This document shows positions 1 to 9,485 of a stretch of 64,000 nucleotides of DNA, one piece after another. Numbering within the stretch: the stretch's first letter is position 1; every line of letters begins with the position of its first letter. The notes below the pieces were generated by a model. That model was not told the origin of the DNA, made no database searches, and saw only the letters and a list, made by a program, of their open reading frames with translations. This DNA comes from Acidimicrobiales bacterium. GTDB lineage: Bacteria > Actinomycetota > Acidimicrobiia > Acidimicrobiales > SHLQ01. The stretch lies in contig JAHDEJ010000003.1 in NCBI GenBank assembly GCA_020628865.1, forward strand, positions 1-64,000. Reading direction: 5' to 3'. The position numbers were made by a program, and so were the translations under genes.

Positions 1-104
1 CGTTCCACGACGGCAGCATGGAAGCACACGAAGCCATGAAGAGTCGGCGGCGATCAACGGCCGAGGCCGGCGACACTGCAGCAGTCATCGAGAGGAACAA
101 CTGA
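1..104 (+). CDS. C-terminal end of an unidentified upstream gene
   Basis: The reading frame that begins at base 3 stays open to a TGA at 102-104 and gives a 33-residue tail ending in ERNN. The stop overlaps the next start in a TGATG junction, so the two genes are translationally coupled and probably share an operon. Too little is present to name a family. The final residues are basic then acidic, and no domain is recognisable. Confidence 0.5.
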   Translation, partial: FHDGSMEAHEAMKSRRRSTAEAGDTAAVIERNN

Positions 105-970
105 TGCTCGAAGCAGGTGGCCAGAAGGCGAGCCCAACCGGGGAACACGTGGCGGCATTTCGCCGCGACGGCGTGGTCTGCGTTCGGTCCGCGTTCTCGG
201 CGGAATGGATCGAGCTGCTTCGTGCCGGCCTCGATCGTCACCTGGACGCACCCACCGAACGGGCACGCATCTGGGACCGTGACGCCGAAGGGCGCACCAT
301 GTTCTGGGACAGCATGGCCTGGCATGACGTCCCCGAATATCAGCGCTTCGTGCACGAGTCCGGTGCGGGGGAGCTCGCCGGGCGGATCCTCGAGACGGAG
401 CGCATCAACTTCTTCTTCGACGCCGTCTTCGTTCGCAGCGCCGGATCGCAGTTTGCGACGCCCTGGCATCAGGACGAGCCGTATTGGTCCGTCTCCGGGC
501 ATCAGACGTGCACGATCTGGATGCCGCTCGTGCCGGTCGCCGCAGAGAACGCGCTGGCGTTCGTGCCCGGCTCCCATCTGAGCGACTGGGTCTTCGATCA
601 CTACGATTTCGGGCTGCTGAATCCCGACGCGAAGGCCGATGTCGATCGCAGCGACTTCTCTGCGATTGCCGATGCACCTGTGCCCGACATCGCCTCCGAC
701 CCGGAGGGTTATGGCGTGGTCAGCTGGGCCATGGAGCCGGGAGACTGTGTGATCTTCAACAGCCGGATCCTCCACGGGGGATCGGGACGCCTCCCCGAAG
801 ATCGCGACCTCTGCGTCTTCACCTCGAAGTGGCTCGGCGACGATGTGCGGATCGCCTTCCGCGACCACGGCATGGATCCGGACTTCAGCCAGATCATGCG
901 CTCCCACGGCCTCGCCGATGGCGACCGTCCGGGCACCGAGTTGCTCCCGGAGGTCTGGGCCGCCACCTGA
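104..970 (+). CDS. PhyH-family Fe(II)/2-oxoglutarate dioxygenase
   Basis: A 288-residue member of the phytanoyl-CoA dioxygenase superfamily, whose members hydroxylate small substrates with O2, Fe(II) and 2-oxoglutarate in the cytoplasm. The facial triad is visible as the HxD in TPWHQDEPYW near residue 127 and the distal His in SRILHGGSG near residue 222. The ATG at 104 follows an AGAGGA ribosome site and overlaps the stop of the upstream gene. The family includes PhnY, which hydroxylates 2-aminoethylphosphonate, as well as ectoine hydroxylase and many uncharacterised enzymes. The gene converges, with only 7 bp between, on a fused phosphonate-type protein, so a phosphonate or quaternary-amine substrate is possible. 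That is inference from position alone, and the substrate is unknown. Confidence 0.85.
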   Translation: MLEAGGQKASPTGEHVAAFRRDGVVCVRSAFSAEWIELLRAGLDRHLDAPTERARIWDRDAEGRTMFWDSMAWHDVPEYQRFVHESGAGELAGRILETERINFFFDAVFVRSAGSQFATPWHQDEPYWSVSGHQTCTIWMPLVPVAAENALAFVPGSHLSDWVFDHYDFGLLNPDAKADVDRSDFSAIADAPVPDIASDPEGYGVVSWAMEPGDCVIFNSRILHGGSGRLPEDRDLCVFTSKWLGDDVRIAFRDHGMDPDFSQIMRSHGLADGDRPGTELLPEVWAAT

Positions 971-977
971 TCTCCGG

Positions 978-3305
978 TCAGCCAGCGGTGAGTGCCGAGG
1001 ACCGGATCGCATCCATGTCGATGTAGCACCCCTGGAGGTGGCGTCGTTCCGTCGCTCGGAACGCTCGGCGTCCGTGAAGGACGCGACGATTGTCGAAGGC
1101 CACGACCTCCCCGGGGCGGAGCGTGAGCTCGATGGCGAAGTCATCACGGTCGAGCATGGTCACGAAGCGGGCGTAGGCGGCGTAGAACGCCGCTGACTGC
1201 GGGTCGTCGGCCGTCAGCGGCTCCATGGATCGGTTGTTGACGCTGACCGCGATCACCGTGCCGGAGTTGTCGAGCTCGACCAGCGGACGAGTGGCCCGAA
1301 GGTCGGCGCCGTCGCCGTGATACCGGAACGTCACATCGGTCGTGGTCAGGACCCGGAAGTCCGCCGGATGCTCGAGTCGCAGCGCCTCGGCCACAGACAG
1401 TCCGTCGACGAACCGGCTTGCGCCGCCATCGGCGGCCGCCGCGATGCAGTGCAGCAGCTGCACCGTTGGGCACGGGTTTCGATACGGATTGTCGGTGTGC
1501 GCCGGAAGCCCGAGCGGCGTGTATGCGAGGTTGACGGGGTCCGGCTCGGCGATGACGTCGAACAGGTCGCCATAGTTGGTCACGCGGACATGGCCGATCG
1601 TGTTGCCGACAGTCAGCACGGTGCGCTCCTCAGCGCCGCAATCGTGCAGCAGCGCAAGGCCCCGCTCGGCGAGCTGGCGGACGAACGGCGTGCGATCGGC
1701 GGACCACGCCGTGCTCTCGGCCCGGAGACGGTTTGCGAGGTCTGCGGTCCATGGCTCGGCTGGGGGTTCCGGGATCGGTGCCGCAGGGATGATGCAGAGG
1801 TGGCGTTCGCCGCTCTCTCGATGGAGCGTCACGCGCAGCTCCTCGTCGGGTCGGTCGGTGCGCACAACCGTCCAACCATCGAGCGCCGTGGCGTCGATCA
1901 AGTGCTGGTCGTTGCCAGCGTCTCGGCACTCCGGGCATCGGCACGCGTCGCGCGCCCATGCAGGATCGATGGGTCGGCGCGCCACCAGCGCTTCCCCGAG
2001 CAATGGTCGGTATGCGTCGAGCGGCGGGATCTCGAGGCCGTCGACCTTTCCGTCGTCGTCGTAGGCGCGGAGCTGCACCGCTTCGGCGGTGAACGGCAGC
2101 GCTCCGAAGGCCGCCGCTTCCTCAGCGGTCATCGGCCCGCCCTGCTCCTCGAGCGACATCTGCGACGCCAGGCTCAGGCGATCGTGGTAGGTCGGATCCA
2201 CGGCGACCTGGAAGCGCTTCGCATCGACATGGTGGCGGATCGGTTCGACGATGGCAGGGGACAACAGCGGCTGCAGGGCTCGTGCACCCACGTTGGCATG
2301 TCCGGGGAGTCCCCAGTCGCCGGCCGCACCCATCACGTGGCCGAGATCGTGGAGCAGGCAGGCCAGGACCATCTCGTCACCCGCGTCGGCCGCATGGGCA
2401 AGGGCAGCGGATTGGAGCGCATGGTCGAGCATCGTGACCCGCTCGCCATAGGACTCGTGGGCCGTGGCCTGGAGCAGGTCCATCAAGGTGTCGACGACGT
2501 CCACCTCATGGCCGAGGAGCGACGCTCCCTCCCATCGAGCGTCCGGCGCAACGCCACAGAGGTCAGCGACGGTGGGTGCGACGTCGAGCGCGGACGTGTG
2601 CTCCCACGCGGTCGCAGGTGCCACCCGTCCGGGCGCTCGGACGACGACGAACGTCTCGAGGACCTCGGGAACCTCGTCGGCGTGATTGGTGCCGATGCCT
2701 CCGTGATCTGTCGTCACGAGCACATTTGTGTCGGGGCCGGCGGCATCGAGCAGCCGAGCCAACTGTGCGTCGGACCGCGTTGCGGCATCGATGTACTCGG
2801 GACTGTCCCAACCGAATTCGTGGCCGTCGACGTCCGGACGGGAGAGGTAGGAGAAGACGAGGTCGTGGGCGCCTTCGCGCAGCAGTGAGACTGCCGCGTC
2901 GGTCGATCGGCGATCGTCGTCCGGCCCGTAGCCGCCGTCGATGACGTGTCGGTGCTCGGCAGCATCGCGCTCGATGACCGCGTCGAGGGGAAGCCAATTC
3001 ACGAACATGGCGGTACGGAGGCCAGCGTTTCGAGCGTGCTTCAGGAACGACGGAGCATCGGTGGACAACGGCTTCGGGGTGTTGTCGGCCAGGCCGTGCG
3101 TTGCGGGATCGATTCCGCGGAACAGTGACGTGTGGACGGGCAGTGTCCACGGCGGACTGACTGTCTTCGACGTGAAGCACGACGCACCTTCGAGTGCAAG
3201 CGTCGTCAGGGTCGGCATCGTCGTCCGCGTGATGTGTCGGGGAGCGACGCCATCGATCGAAACGACGAGCGTCGTACGGCCGGCGGACTGGTCGGGAGTG
3301 GGCAT
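978..3305 (-). CDS. Three-domain fusion: phosphodiesterase, PhnZ/TmpB-type HD oxygenase, TmpA/GBBH-type dioxygenase
   Basis: A 775-residue protein made of three enzymes. Residues about 10-270 are an alkaline-phosphatase-superfamily phosphodiesterase (NPP type) with metal and nucleophile residues D18, T54, D158, H162, D200, H201 and H236. Residues about 275-445 resemble the phosphonate-degradation HD oxygenases (PhnZ/TmpB), with H295, H319-D320 and H323, followed by the family's HVDAKRF and QGGPM motifs. Residues about 447-775 are a gamma-butyrobetaine hydroxylase/TmpA-type dioxygenase with zinc cysteines C455, C457 and C460, HTD at 603-605 and the distal His 744. TmpA hydroxylates 2-trimethylaminoethylphosphonate, and TmpB then cleaves its C-P bond to glycine betaine and phosphate. 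The phosphodiesterase could free the substrate from a diester, which is inference. The start at 3305 is preferred because GGAGG lies 11 nt upstream; a longer frame exists to 3386. I do not know this three-part fusion from characterised proteins. Confidence 0.88.
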   Translation of the reverse strand: MPTPDQSAGRTTLVVSIDGVAPRHITRTTMPTLTTLALEGASCFTSKTVSPPWTLPVHTSLFRGIDPATHGLADNTPKPLSTDAPSFLKHARNAGLRTAMFVNWLPLDAVIERDAAEHRHVIDGGYGPDDDRRSTDAAVSLLREGAHDLVFSYLSRPDVDGHEFGWDSPEYIDAATRSDAQLARLLDAAGPDTNVLVTTDHGGIGTNHADEVPEVLETFVVVRAPGRVAPATAWEHTSALDVAPTVADLCGVAPDARWEGASLLGHEVDVVDTLMDLLQATAHESYGERVTMLDHALQSAALAHAADAGDEMVLACLLHDLGHVMGAAGDWGLPGHANVGARALQPLLSPAIVEPIRHHVDAKRFQVAVDPTYHDRLSLASQMSLEEQGGPMTAEEAAAFGALPFTAEAVQLRAYDDDGKVDGLEIPPLDAYRPLLGEALVARRPIDPAWARDACRCPECRDAGNDQHLIDATALDGWTVVRTDRPDEELRVTLHRESGERHLCIIPAAPIPEPPAEPWTADLANRLRAESTAWSADRTPFVRQLAERGLALLHDCGAEERTVLTVGNTIGHVRVTNYGDLFDVIAEPDPVNLAYTPLGLPAHTDNPYRNPCPTVQLLHCIAAAADGGASRFVDGLSVAEALRLEHPADFRVLTTTDVTFRYHGDGADLRATRPLVELDNSGTVIAVSVNNRSMEPLTADDPQSAAFYAAYARFVTMLDRDDFAIELTLRPGEVVAFDNRRVLHGRRAFRATERRHLQGCYIDMDAIRSSALTAG

Positions 3306-3371: not shown

Positions 3372-3416
3372 CCAGGTGCCTGGCACCTAACACCCGCTTA
3401 GGTGCCAGGCACCTAA
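3372..3416. repeat. Two copies of a GGTGCC-N-GGCACC palindrome
   Basis: Two 15-bp palindromes (AGGTGCC, one base, GGCACCT) lie at 3374-3388 and 3400-3414. The second extends to a perfect 19-bp palindrome, TTAGGTGCC-A-GGCACCTAA, at 3398-3416. They sit between the fusion gene and fur, upstream of both. The same core recurs at 8671-8683, and a related GGGGTC-N-GACCCC palindrome recurs at 50.36-50.43 kb, so these look like dispersed intergenic repeats rather than an operator private to one gene. Confidence 0.8.
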
Positions 3417-3487: not shown

Positions 3488-3913
3488 TTGAGTGACACCG
3501 TGGACGACAGCACCGAGCAGAAGCTCCGCAGTCATGGGGTACAGGTCACCGCTCAGCGGCTCGCCGTGCTCGACGCGGTTGCTGCCCGGCCCCACGCCAC
3601 GACGGAGGAACTGACCGAGGACGTCCGGTCCAGCATCGGTTCGATCTCCCGTCAGGCCGTCTACGACACCCTCGGCGTCTTTGTCGAGAAGAACCTGGTG
3701 CGCCGCATTCAACCGACCGGATCGGTCGCACGGTACGAGGATCGGGTGGGGGACAACCATCACCACCTCGTCTGCCGCGAATGCAGCATCATGTTCGACA
3801 TCGACTGTGCCGTAGGTACGACACCATGCCTCACCGCCAATGACGATCACGGGTTCGAGATCGACGAGGCCGAGGTCGTGTACTGGGGTCGCTGCCCCTC
3901 CTGTCGGGCCTGA
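3488..3913 (+). CDS. furA: Fur-family regulator, FurA type
   Basis: A 141-residue ferric-uptake-family repressor. The N-terminal winged helix covers residues about 10-85 ([15 protein letters not shown], then [12 protein letters not shown]). The C-terminal metal and dimer domain has the HHH of NHHHLVC, followed by CREC and a closing CPSC. Placement directly before katG (57 bp between them) matches the FurA-KatG arrangement of actinobacteria, where FurA senses iron or peroxide and represses the catalase-peroxidase. The start used is TTG at 3488; an in-frame GTG at 3500 is equally possible. No ribosome site decides between them, and translation may be leaderless. Confidence 0.9.
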
Positions 3914-6115
<2,202 letters not shown>

Positions 6116-8607: not shown

Positions 8608-8670
8608 GTGTCGCTGCCTCGTGTCCGGTGAAGCCCGAAGTCTACCGACCCACCGCGCCCACACCCCAAA

Positions 8671-8683
8671 GGTGCCAGGCACC
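8671..8683. repeat. Single GGTGCC-A-GGCACC palindrome
   Basis: A perfect 13-bp palindrome in the 77-bp spacer between the AspDH-like gene and purE. It is the same core as the pair at 3374-3414. It could act as a weak hairpin separating the two transcription units, but there is no T-run after it. Confidence 0.7.
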
Positions 8684-8684
8684 A

Positions 8685-9485
8685 TCAGATGATGACGGGG
8701 TTGACTCGGTTCTGGATTGCTCGGGCGAGGTTCAAGGCCGCCATCGCCGAGGTCTTCGGATTGCCCGGGAGTGGATTGTTGGCGATGACGACGTCCAAGG
8801 CGCCGAATGCGCCGGACGCAGAGATCTCGTGGCGATTGGTCGTCGAATCCGGGTCGGCCACGAGCGAGATGATGGTGCGGTCCGGGCCGATGCCGGCGAG
8901 TGCCGTGGTCATCGCAACGTTCGCGTTCTTCGGAAACGCCGTCGCCGTTGCGGCGGCCGAGTCCTGAAAGAAGGTGATCGGTTCCGACAAGTGCTCGAGA
9001 TCGCACAGATGCTCGGCGGGTGTCGATCGCCACGCTCGAGGCGGCTTCACGATCCGATGCTCGACCGAGTCGACCCCCATGCGCATCGCTCCGGCGAGTG
9101 CATCGATGCCGCCGAGGGCACCCGTTTGGATCTCCAGCTGGCACTGGTGGCGAATGGCGCTCGCCCGAAGTGCCTCGAGCAACGCCGGATCGGCCAGGGC
9201 GGAGACGGACGAGACGATGAAGTCTGCGCCCGACTGCAGCGACGCCTGACCCCACGGTTCGACGCTGTCGCGACCCGCCGCCTCGGCGACGAGCCGGACG
9301 TCGTGGCCCACGATTTCCGCCGGATCCGCAATGAGTGTGGTTCCGGCCGGCAGGCCGGAGCGAGCCCGCTCTGGGTTATTCACTGCGACGAACGCGATCT
9401 CGATGGGCGAGTCTTCGAGCAGTCGCGCGACGGTCTGGCCGATCGCACCCCAACCGATGAGGCCGATTCGCATCGGCCGGCTCAC
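8685..9485 (-). CDS. L-aspartate dehydrogenase-like protein (NadX/DUF108 family)
   Basis: About 266 residues with an N-terminal Rossmann fold ([16 protein letters not shown]) and family motifs GALGGIDAL near residue 143 and [11 protein letters not shown] near 206. Aspartate dehydrogenases of this family interconvert L-aspartate and oxaloacetate or iminoaspartate and can feed NAD synthesis. The gene is the last of the tryptophan-kynurenine operon, and its GTG start at 9485 overlaps the preceding stop (GTGA); an ATG lies at 9473. In this setting it may act on aspartate, or on an unsaturated or amino product of 3-hydroxyanthranilate ring cleavage; the second idea is inference. Confidence 0.8.

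Follow-up and report, generated by a model that had tools for sequence, protein, structure and literature searches.

A putative phosphonate ester-degrading fusion of a phosphodiesterase-like domain and two oxygenases in Acidimicrobiales

What would a phosphodiesterase-like domain contribute to a protein that also carries both types of oxygenase used in oxidative C–P cleavage? To our knowledge, characterised C–P-cleaving pathways start from free phosphonate. Cell-surface lipids and glycans incorporate phosphonates as esters, a purpose predicted for most phosphonate gene clusters (PMC6697681, PMC8316502). A partial literature search returned no paper on an enzyme that frees phosphonate from an ester, and no published protein with the order phosphodiesterase (PDE), HD oxygenase, TmpA-type hydroxylase. 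We examined a gene with this order in a 64,000-nucleotide window (the whole stretch of DNA analysed) from an Acidimicrobiales genome.

Three active sites in one reading frame

The frame is open from an ATG at 3305 to its stop at 978, and an alternative upstream start (GTG 3386) would lengthen the protein to 802 aa. A first-pass annotation had claimed three complete active sites in this one frame, and every residue it named is present in the 775-aa product: Thr54, H319-D320, HVDAKRF, QGGPM, HTD (603–605), His744 and CxCxxC (455–460). The domain search it called for matched the protein end to end with PF01663, TIGR03276 and TmpA NF049936/TauD PF02668. The main family alignment holds up to 23 rows, with invariance counted over those having sequence at a position; all metal ligands of the three sites are invariant in it, the only exception being the Cys motif in the PDE-less row L055. 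An AlphaFold2 model built from a 9-row alignment is of moderate quality (mean pLDDT 70.6, pTM 0.46), is poor around the TmpA core (571–612) and does not allow relative domain placement or substrate channelling to be judged.

Table 1 The fused gene and its parts, in window coordinates
Feature	Position	Strand	Remarks
Fused gene, whole	978..3305	(-)	775 aa: PDE, HD oxygenase, TmpA-like hydroxylase in one polypeptide
N-terminal PF01663 domain (NPP-like, alkaline phosphatase superfamily)	2508..3305	(-)	residues 1–266
Middle Phn-HD domain (PhnZ/TmpB-type di-iron oxygenase)	1986..2507	(-)	residues 267–440
C-terminal TmpA/GBBH-type Fe(II)/2-oxoglutarate hydroxylase	993..1970	(-)	residues 446–771
Zinc motif CRCPEC	1926..1943	(-)	C455, C457, C460; fourth ligand H502
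Predicted phosphonate clamp N690-N691-R692	1230..1238	(-)	TmpA contacts (PMC9296572) mapped by alignment

The N-terminal domain matches PF01663 over residues 12–226 (4.9e-23; 82.7 bits against a gathering cut-off of 23). Its closest solved structure by sequence is the Xanthomonas NPP, and the modelled domain superposes on this enzyme with a Z of 24.2 over 248 residues. Phosphoglycerate mutase and sulfatase folds are nearly as close (Z 23–24), so the substrate cannot be deduced from the fold by itself. D18, T54, D158, H162, D200, H201 and H208 are invariant in 21–22 rows of the family alignment, which rules out a degenerate domain. T54 is the predicted nucleophile and the other six are predicted metal ligands. 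H208, assigned from its conservation (22/22 rows), is most likely the third His ligand, since the His of WEHTS, the other candidate, is not conserved and was discarded. N75 stands exactly 21 residues past T54, the spacing of the NPP-type active-site Asn; we take the NPP counterparts of this pair to be Thr90 and Asn111. It is very improbable that the domain is instead a C–P hydrolase like phosphonoacetate hydrolase PhnA, which would give the protein two C–P-cleaving sites. PhnA belongs to the same superfamily and its model TIGR02335 is the best NCBIfam match of the domain, yet it scores 34.4 bits against a cut-off of 407.55, and the oxidative pathway makes no phosphonoacetate.

For the middle domain, placement with PhnZ and TmpB, on which the annotation had staked its reading, held up. 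Residues 270–436 match TIGR03276 Phn-HD at 2.9e-50, the closest structures by sequence are TmpB 6npa and PhnZ 4mlm (about 1e-24), and the AlphaFold2-modelled domain superposes on PhnZ/TmpB with a Z of ~25.5. Scores fall below the curated cut-offs (TIGR03276, 170.3 vs 214.6 bits; TmpB NF049941, 131.3 vs 300); the TIGR03276 cut-off is reached in only 1 of 148 genomes searched within Acidimicrobiales. The di-iron ligands H295, H319, D320, H336, H359 and D416, whose completeness had also been in question, occur in 23/23 family rows, and together with K363 and R413 they are kept in all 64 rows of fused and free-standing HD proteins. The substrate-gating loop of PhnZ and TmpB is YxxE (PMC8177086), whereas the loop here, Y286-G-E288, is one residue shorter (YxE). 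Most free-standing HD oxygenases of Acidimicrobiales share YxE, which thus characterises the wider group and was rejected as a mark of the fusion. Two loci (L028, L031) have an inserted residue in the gate-loop region.

The C-terminal domain matches TmpA NF049936 over residues 446–771 (4e-91; 305.6 bits against an equivalog cut-off of 400) and TauD PF02668 at 7.9e-44, and its closest solved structure by sequence is TmpA 6npb (6.7e-55). The Fe triad H603, D605, H744 and the zinc ligand H502 are invariant across 20–21 rows of the family alignment; R755, assigned by position as the 2-oxoglutarate (2OG)-binding Arg, is invariant wherever sequence is present. C455, C457 and C460 are kept in 20 of 21 rows, L055 being the exception; the zinc motif is retained in all three-domain rows aligned and is absent from the PDE-less L084 and L055. 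Because the TmpA, TmpB and Phn-HD cut-offs are all missed, we call the two oxygenase domains TmpA-like and PhnZ/TmpB-like rather than TmpA and TmpB.

TmpA contacts its phosphonate through N187, N287 and R288 (PMC9296572), which correspond by alignment offset to N592, N691 and R692 of the window protein; all three are present. Throughout the fused clade N592 and R692 are conserved without exception, while position 691 varies (N, K, H, P). Alongside N592 and R692, the aromatic positions Y578, F582, Y/F595 and Y761 are kept in both fused and tmpB-paired TmpA rows, position 595 being F in some family members. As a negative control, four GBBH/TauD-like paralogues in the host genome lack the substrate-contact combination. 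R692 alone was rejected as a phosphonate marker, as it also occurs in L006, L029 and L163; the groups are told apart only by N592, N690 and R692 taken together.

Genomic context and candidate substrates

Comparison of the loci of fused relatives revealed no conserved operon around the fusion, so its function has to be read from its domains and from the context of relatives. Three of the four best-scoring free-standing PDE homologues (L088, L153 and L154; 143, 123 and 122 bits; the same genes as L062, L063 and L065) are the last gene of an HpnW–PhnX-like–PhnT–PhnU–PhnV–PhnS–PDE operon. In L088, the one tested, PhnS scores 509 bits against a cut-off of 310, and PhnU, the PhnX-like protein and HpnW also exceed their NCBIfam cut-offs. 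These PhnSTUV-linked PDEs have Ser instead of Thr in the nucleophile column and the L088 PDE has, by eye, a signal-like N-terminal stretch, so that their substrates may be other esters, outside the cell.

A second association is found at L123:3878-10794: a frame encoding both a PhnY-type PhyH hydroxylase and an HD domain precedes a PF01663 gene, after which comes a betaine-type ABC transporter (ProV above its cut-off, plus an OpuAC binding protein); a limited literature search found no mention of this arrangement. A PF01663 gene also adjoins 7 of 35 non-fused Acidimicrobiales HD loci examined, five of the seven coming from one genus, that of the window, and so not being independent. The HD-adjacent PDEs form a clade of their own, and most of them lack the third His. 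Links between PF01663 proteins and phosphonate genes thus exist in three distinct lineages of the family.

These associations bear on what the N-terminal domain hydrolyses. PF01663 enzymes have diverse substrates, the NPP, phosphoglycerate mutase and sulfatase matches lie close together in Z, and there are weak choline-sulfatase matches to the domain. Accordingly, it could act as a nucleotide pyrophosphatase, on phosphomonoesters or on choline-type esters, the fusion then serving to co-express enzymes of phosphorus or quaternary-amine metabolism. We consider this unlikely given that most of the nearest free-standing relatives sit in phosphonate operons, that PF01663 genes recur beside HD oxygenases, and that the same polypeptide carries two C–P pathway enzymes. 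A phosphonate ester is the probable substrate.

The phosphonate itself is somewhat less firmly indicated. We lean towards 2-trimethylaminoethylphosphonate (TMAEP): among the phosphonate hydroxylases known to us, TmpA and DfmD of the TauD/GBBH type use TMAEP, those for 2-aminoethylphosphonate (AEP) and methylphosphonate are of the PhyH type (PMC10574752, PMC9296572; PhnY fold from NF052437/PhyH), and the trimethylammonium-pocket aromatics are largely kept. In G264 a choline-sulfatase gene (659.9 bits against a cut-off of 433) begins shortly downstream of the fusion, which fits quaternary-amine metabolism. It is doubtful, though deserving some weight, that the two oxygenase domains instead degrade AEP, its mono- or dimethylated form or another alkylphosphonate, with a carbon product other than glycine betaine. 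Such a specificity would suit the sub-cut-off TmpA and TmpB scores, the variation at TmpA N287 and the Phe found for Y595 in some members. Near the fusion in L023, L026 and L076 the ABC transporter genes are of polyamine rather than betaine type, a less specific context, and the PhnSTUV operons that hold the nearest free-standing PDEs are of the AEP type.

In the host genome the C–P lyase gene phnJ is absent, PEP mutase matches are all below the cut-off, and OpuAC-type binding proteins are present.

Several neighbouring features were recorded in passing. A PhyH-family dioxygenase gene (window 104–970) is convergent with the fusion, their stop codons 7 bases apart; it was dismissed as a pathway partner, not being conserved beside other fusions. 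Two copies of the palindromic repeat TAGGTGCCAGGCACCTA lie just upstream of the gene (3373–3415) and a third, weaker copy is at 8669–8685, amounting to five matches with both strands counted against 0.06 expected by shuffling. At 3488–6115 a Fur/PerR-type regulator gene is directly upstream of a catalase-peroxidase-like frame (katG, by eye), the usual peroxide-response pair. Elsewhere in the window's genus, alpha/beta-hydrolase, Phn-HD and PF01663 genes stand in a row, nearly touching or overlapping (L134:4590-7152, L149:4720-7288, L038:7896-10409), and no TmpA- or PhnY-type hydroxylase was recognised near these rows.

Distribution and origin of the fusion

A search for other genomes with the same domain order recovered all three domains in one frame in 18 distinct sequences from independent assemblies, at about 42–75% identity per domain, two of which end slightly short of the C-terminus. 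All belong to a single order, Acidimicrobiales, in which they represent four or more families (f1, f7, f18 and f34 among the G-handle genomes), and they rule out a chance frame or assembly artefact. A scan of contigs from 84,980 species by exact short peptide patterns, which reaches close relatives only, returned five full-length three-domain proteins, all in Acidimicrobiales MAGs and none outside the order; more were found by searching 397 Acidimicrobiales genomes. A PDE query of 396 sampled Actinomycetota genomes detected no fused-type PDE outside Acidimicrobiales.

Partial arrangements also occur, namely a PDE-HD protein without TmpA (L033), an HD-TmpA fusion without PDE (L084) and separate tmpA and tmpB genes side by side (L085–L087). 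Four further relatives (L035, L045, L052, L054) are broken, truncated or lacking a domain, L035 being a damaged HD/TmpA remnant from the window's own genus. Such relatives would be expected of a decayed, non-functional fusion or of misassembly, readings that we regard as extremely improbable given so many sequences from independent assemblies in several families, with invariant ligands in three domains. Fused PDEs form one clade in our trees (SH-aLRT 98), as do fused TmpA domains with L035 included (SH-aLRT 100), and fused HDs form a single lineage adjoining HDs paired with TmpA. The simplest history, with the tree root not fixed, is one assembly event followed by occasional domain loss.

As a separate observation, in two gammaproteobacterial loci (L029:361-2078, L030:7680-9676) a TmpA-like gene adjoins a distant HD gene with the motif HDIGD, which scores 45–52 bits against the fused-HD profile; these are possibly another hydroxylase-HD oxygenase pair.

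A proposed route and its relation to known systems

We hypothesize, as a fairly probable reading, that the fusion is a trifunctional cytosolic phosphorus-scavenging enzyme converting a phosphonate ester to phosphate. From the families to which the domains belong we infer what each does and in which sequence. The NPP-like domain, with Thr54 as nucleophile and a two-metal site, would hydrolyse the ester (C–P–O–R) and free the phosphonate. With Fe(II), O2 and 2-oxoglutarate, the TmpA-like domain would then hydroxylate the released phosphonate at C1; TMAEP or a closely related quaternary compound is the most likely substrate. Finally, the mixed-valent di-iron site of the HD domain would oxidatively cleave the C–P bond of the 1-hydroxyphosphonate, yielding inorganic phosphate and a carboxylate, which would be glycine betaine if the substrate were TMAEP. 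Both oxygenase types need a cytosolic setting (2OG, Fe(II)), and inspection of the fusion's N-terminus by eye gave no sign of a signal peptide. For these reasons we would expect a cytosolic ester or a small imported one, the latter being more likely to be acted on than an intact membrane phosphonolipid.

In favour of this model are the domain matches, the invariant ligands, the kept TmpA contacts, the operon context of PDE relatives, L123, the HD-PDE neighbours, the G264 choline-sulfatase, the lack of PhnJ and the position of the HD domain in the tree. Against it we count the sub-cut-off scores, the variable N287 position, the YxE loop, the Ser and signal-like N-terminus of PhnSTUV-linked PDEs, the separate clade of the HD-adjacent PDEs with its mostly missing third His, the shared genus of five of the seven HD-PDE neighbours and the lack of a conserved operon. 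Its least certain points are the PDE substrate and the identity of TMAEP. What gives the locus its interest is a hydrolase covalently tied to both oxidative C–P enzymes, with relatives that stand at the end of operons for phosphonate uptake. If the model is right, it names a missing first step, the release of phosphonate from an ester, and describes how a bacterium lacking C–P lyase could get from phosphonate ester to phosphate with one protein.

The first-pass annotation had proposed hydroxylation, C–P cleavage and a hydrolase that could free a phosphonate headgroup from a diester, all in one chain, and knew of no characterised protein with this order. The domains, active sites and PDE operon context support such a chain, but joining a hydroxylase to an HD oxygenase is already known. 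PhoF of the fungus Fonsecaea multimorphosa is a bifunctional PhnY-PhnZ fusion that degrades aminophosphonates (PMC10574752), and bacterial HD-TmpA (L084) and PhnY-HD (L123) fusions occur in the same order.

TmpA and TmpB of the Leisingera caerulea TMAEP pathway have the same two catalytic domain types, Fe triad, di-iron ligands, aromatics and phosphonate-binding Asn and Arg. They are separate proteins, whereas the window protein scores below their cut-offs, has YxE rather than YxxE and carries an extra NPP-like domain. PhnY/PhnZ and Gimesia PhnY*/PhnZ1 share the HD fold and ligands and the sequence of 1-hydroxylation followed by oxidative C–P cleavage; they differ in their PhyH-type hydroxylase and separate genes. 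Like the window protein, PhoF has hydroxylase and HD oxygenase fused in one protein. Its hydroxylase is of the PhnY (PhyH) kind, paired with a PhnZ-type HD domain as in the L123 frame, rather than TauD/TmpA type as here, and no phosphodiesterase domain is mentioned for it (PMC10574752). With the NPP family (Xanthomonas NPP, ENPP6/7) the N-terminal domain has in common the fold, the Thr nucleophile, the two-metal ligands and the Asn 21 residues past the Thr. It differs in its length of ~266 residues, its fusion to oxygenases and its third His, provisionally H208, just after DHGG. Set beside these systems, what appears to be new in the protein is its built-in hydrolase and its domain order.
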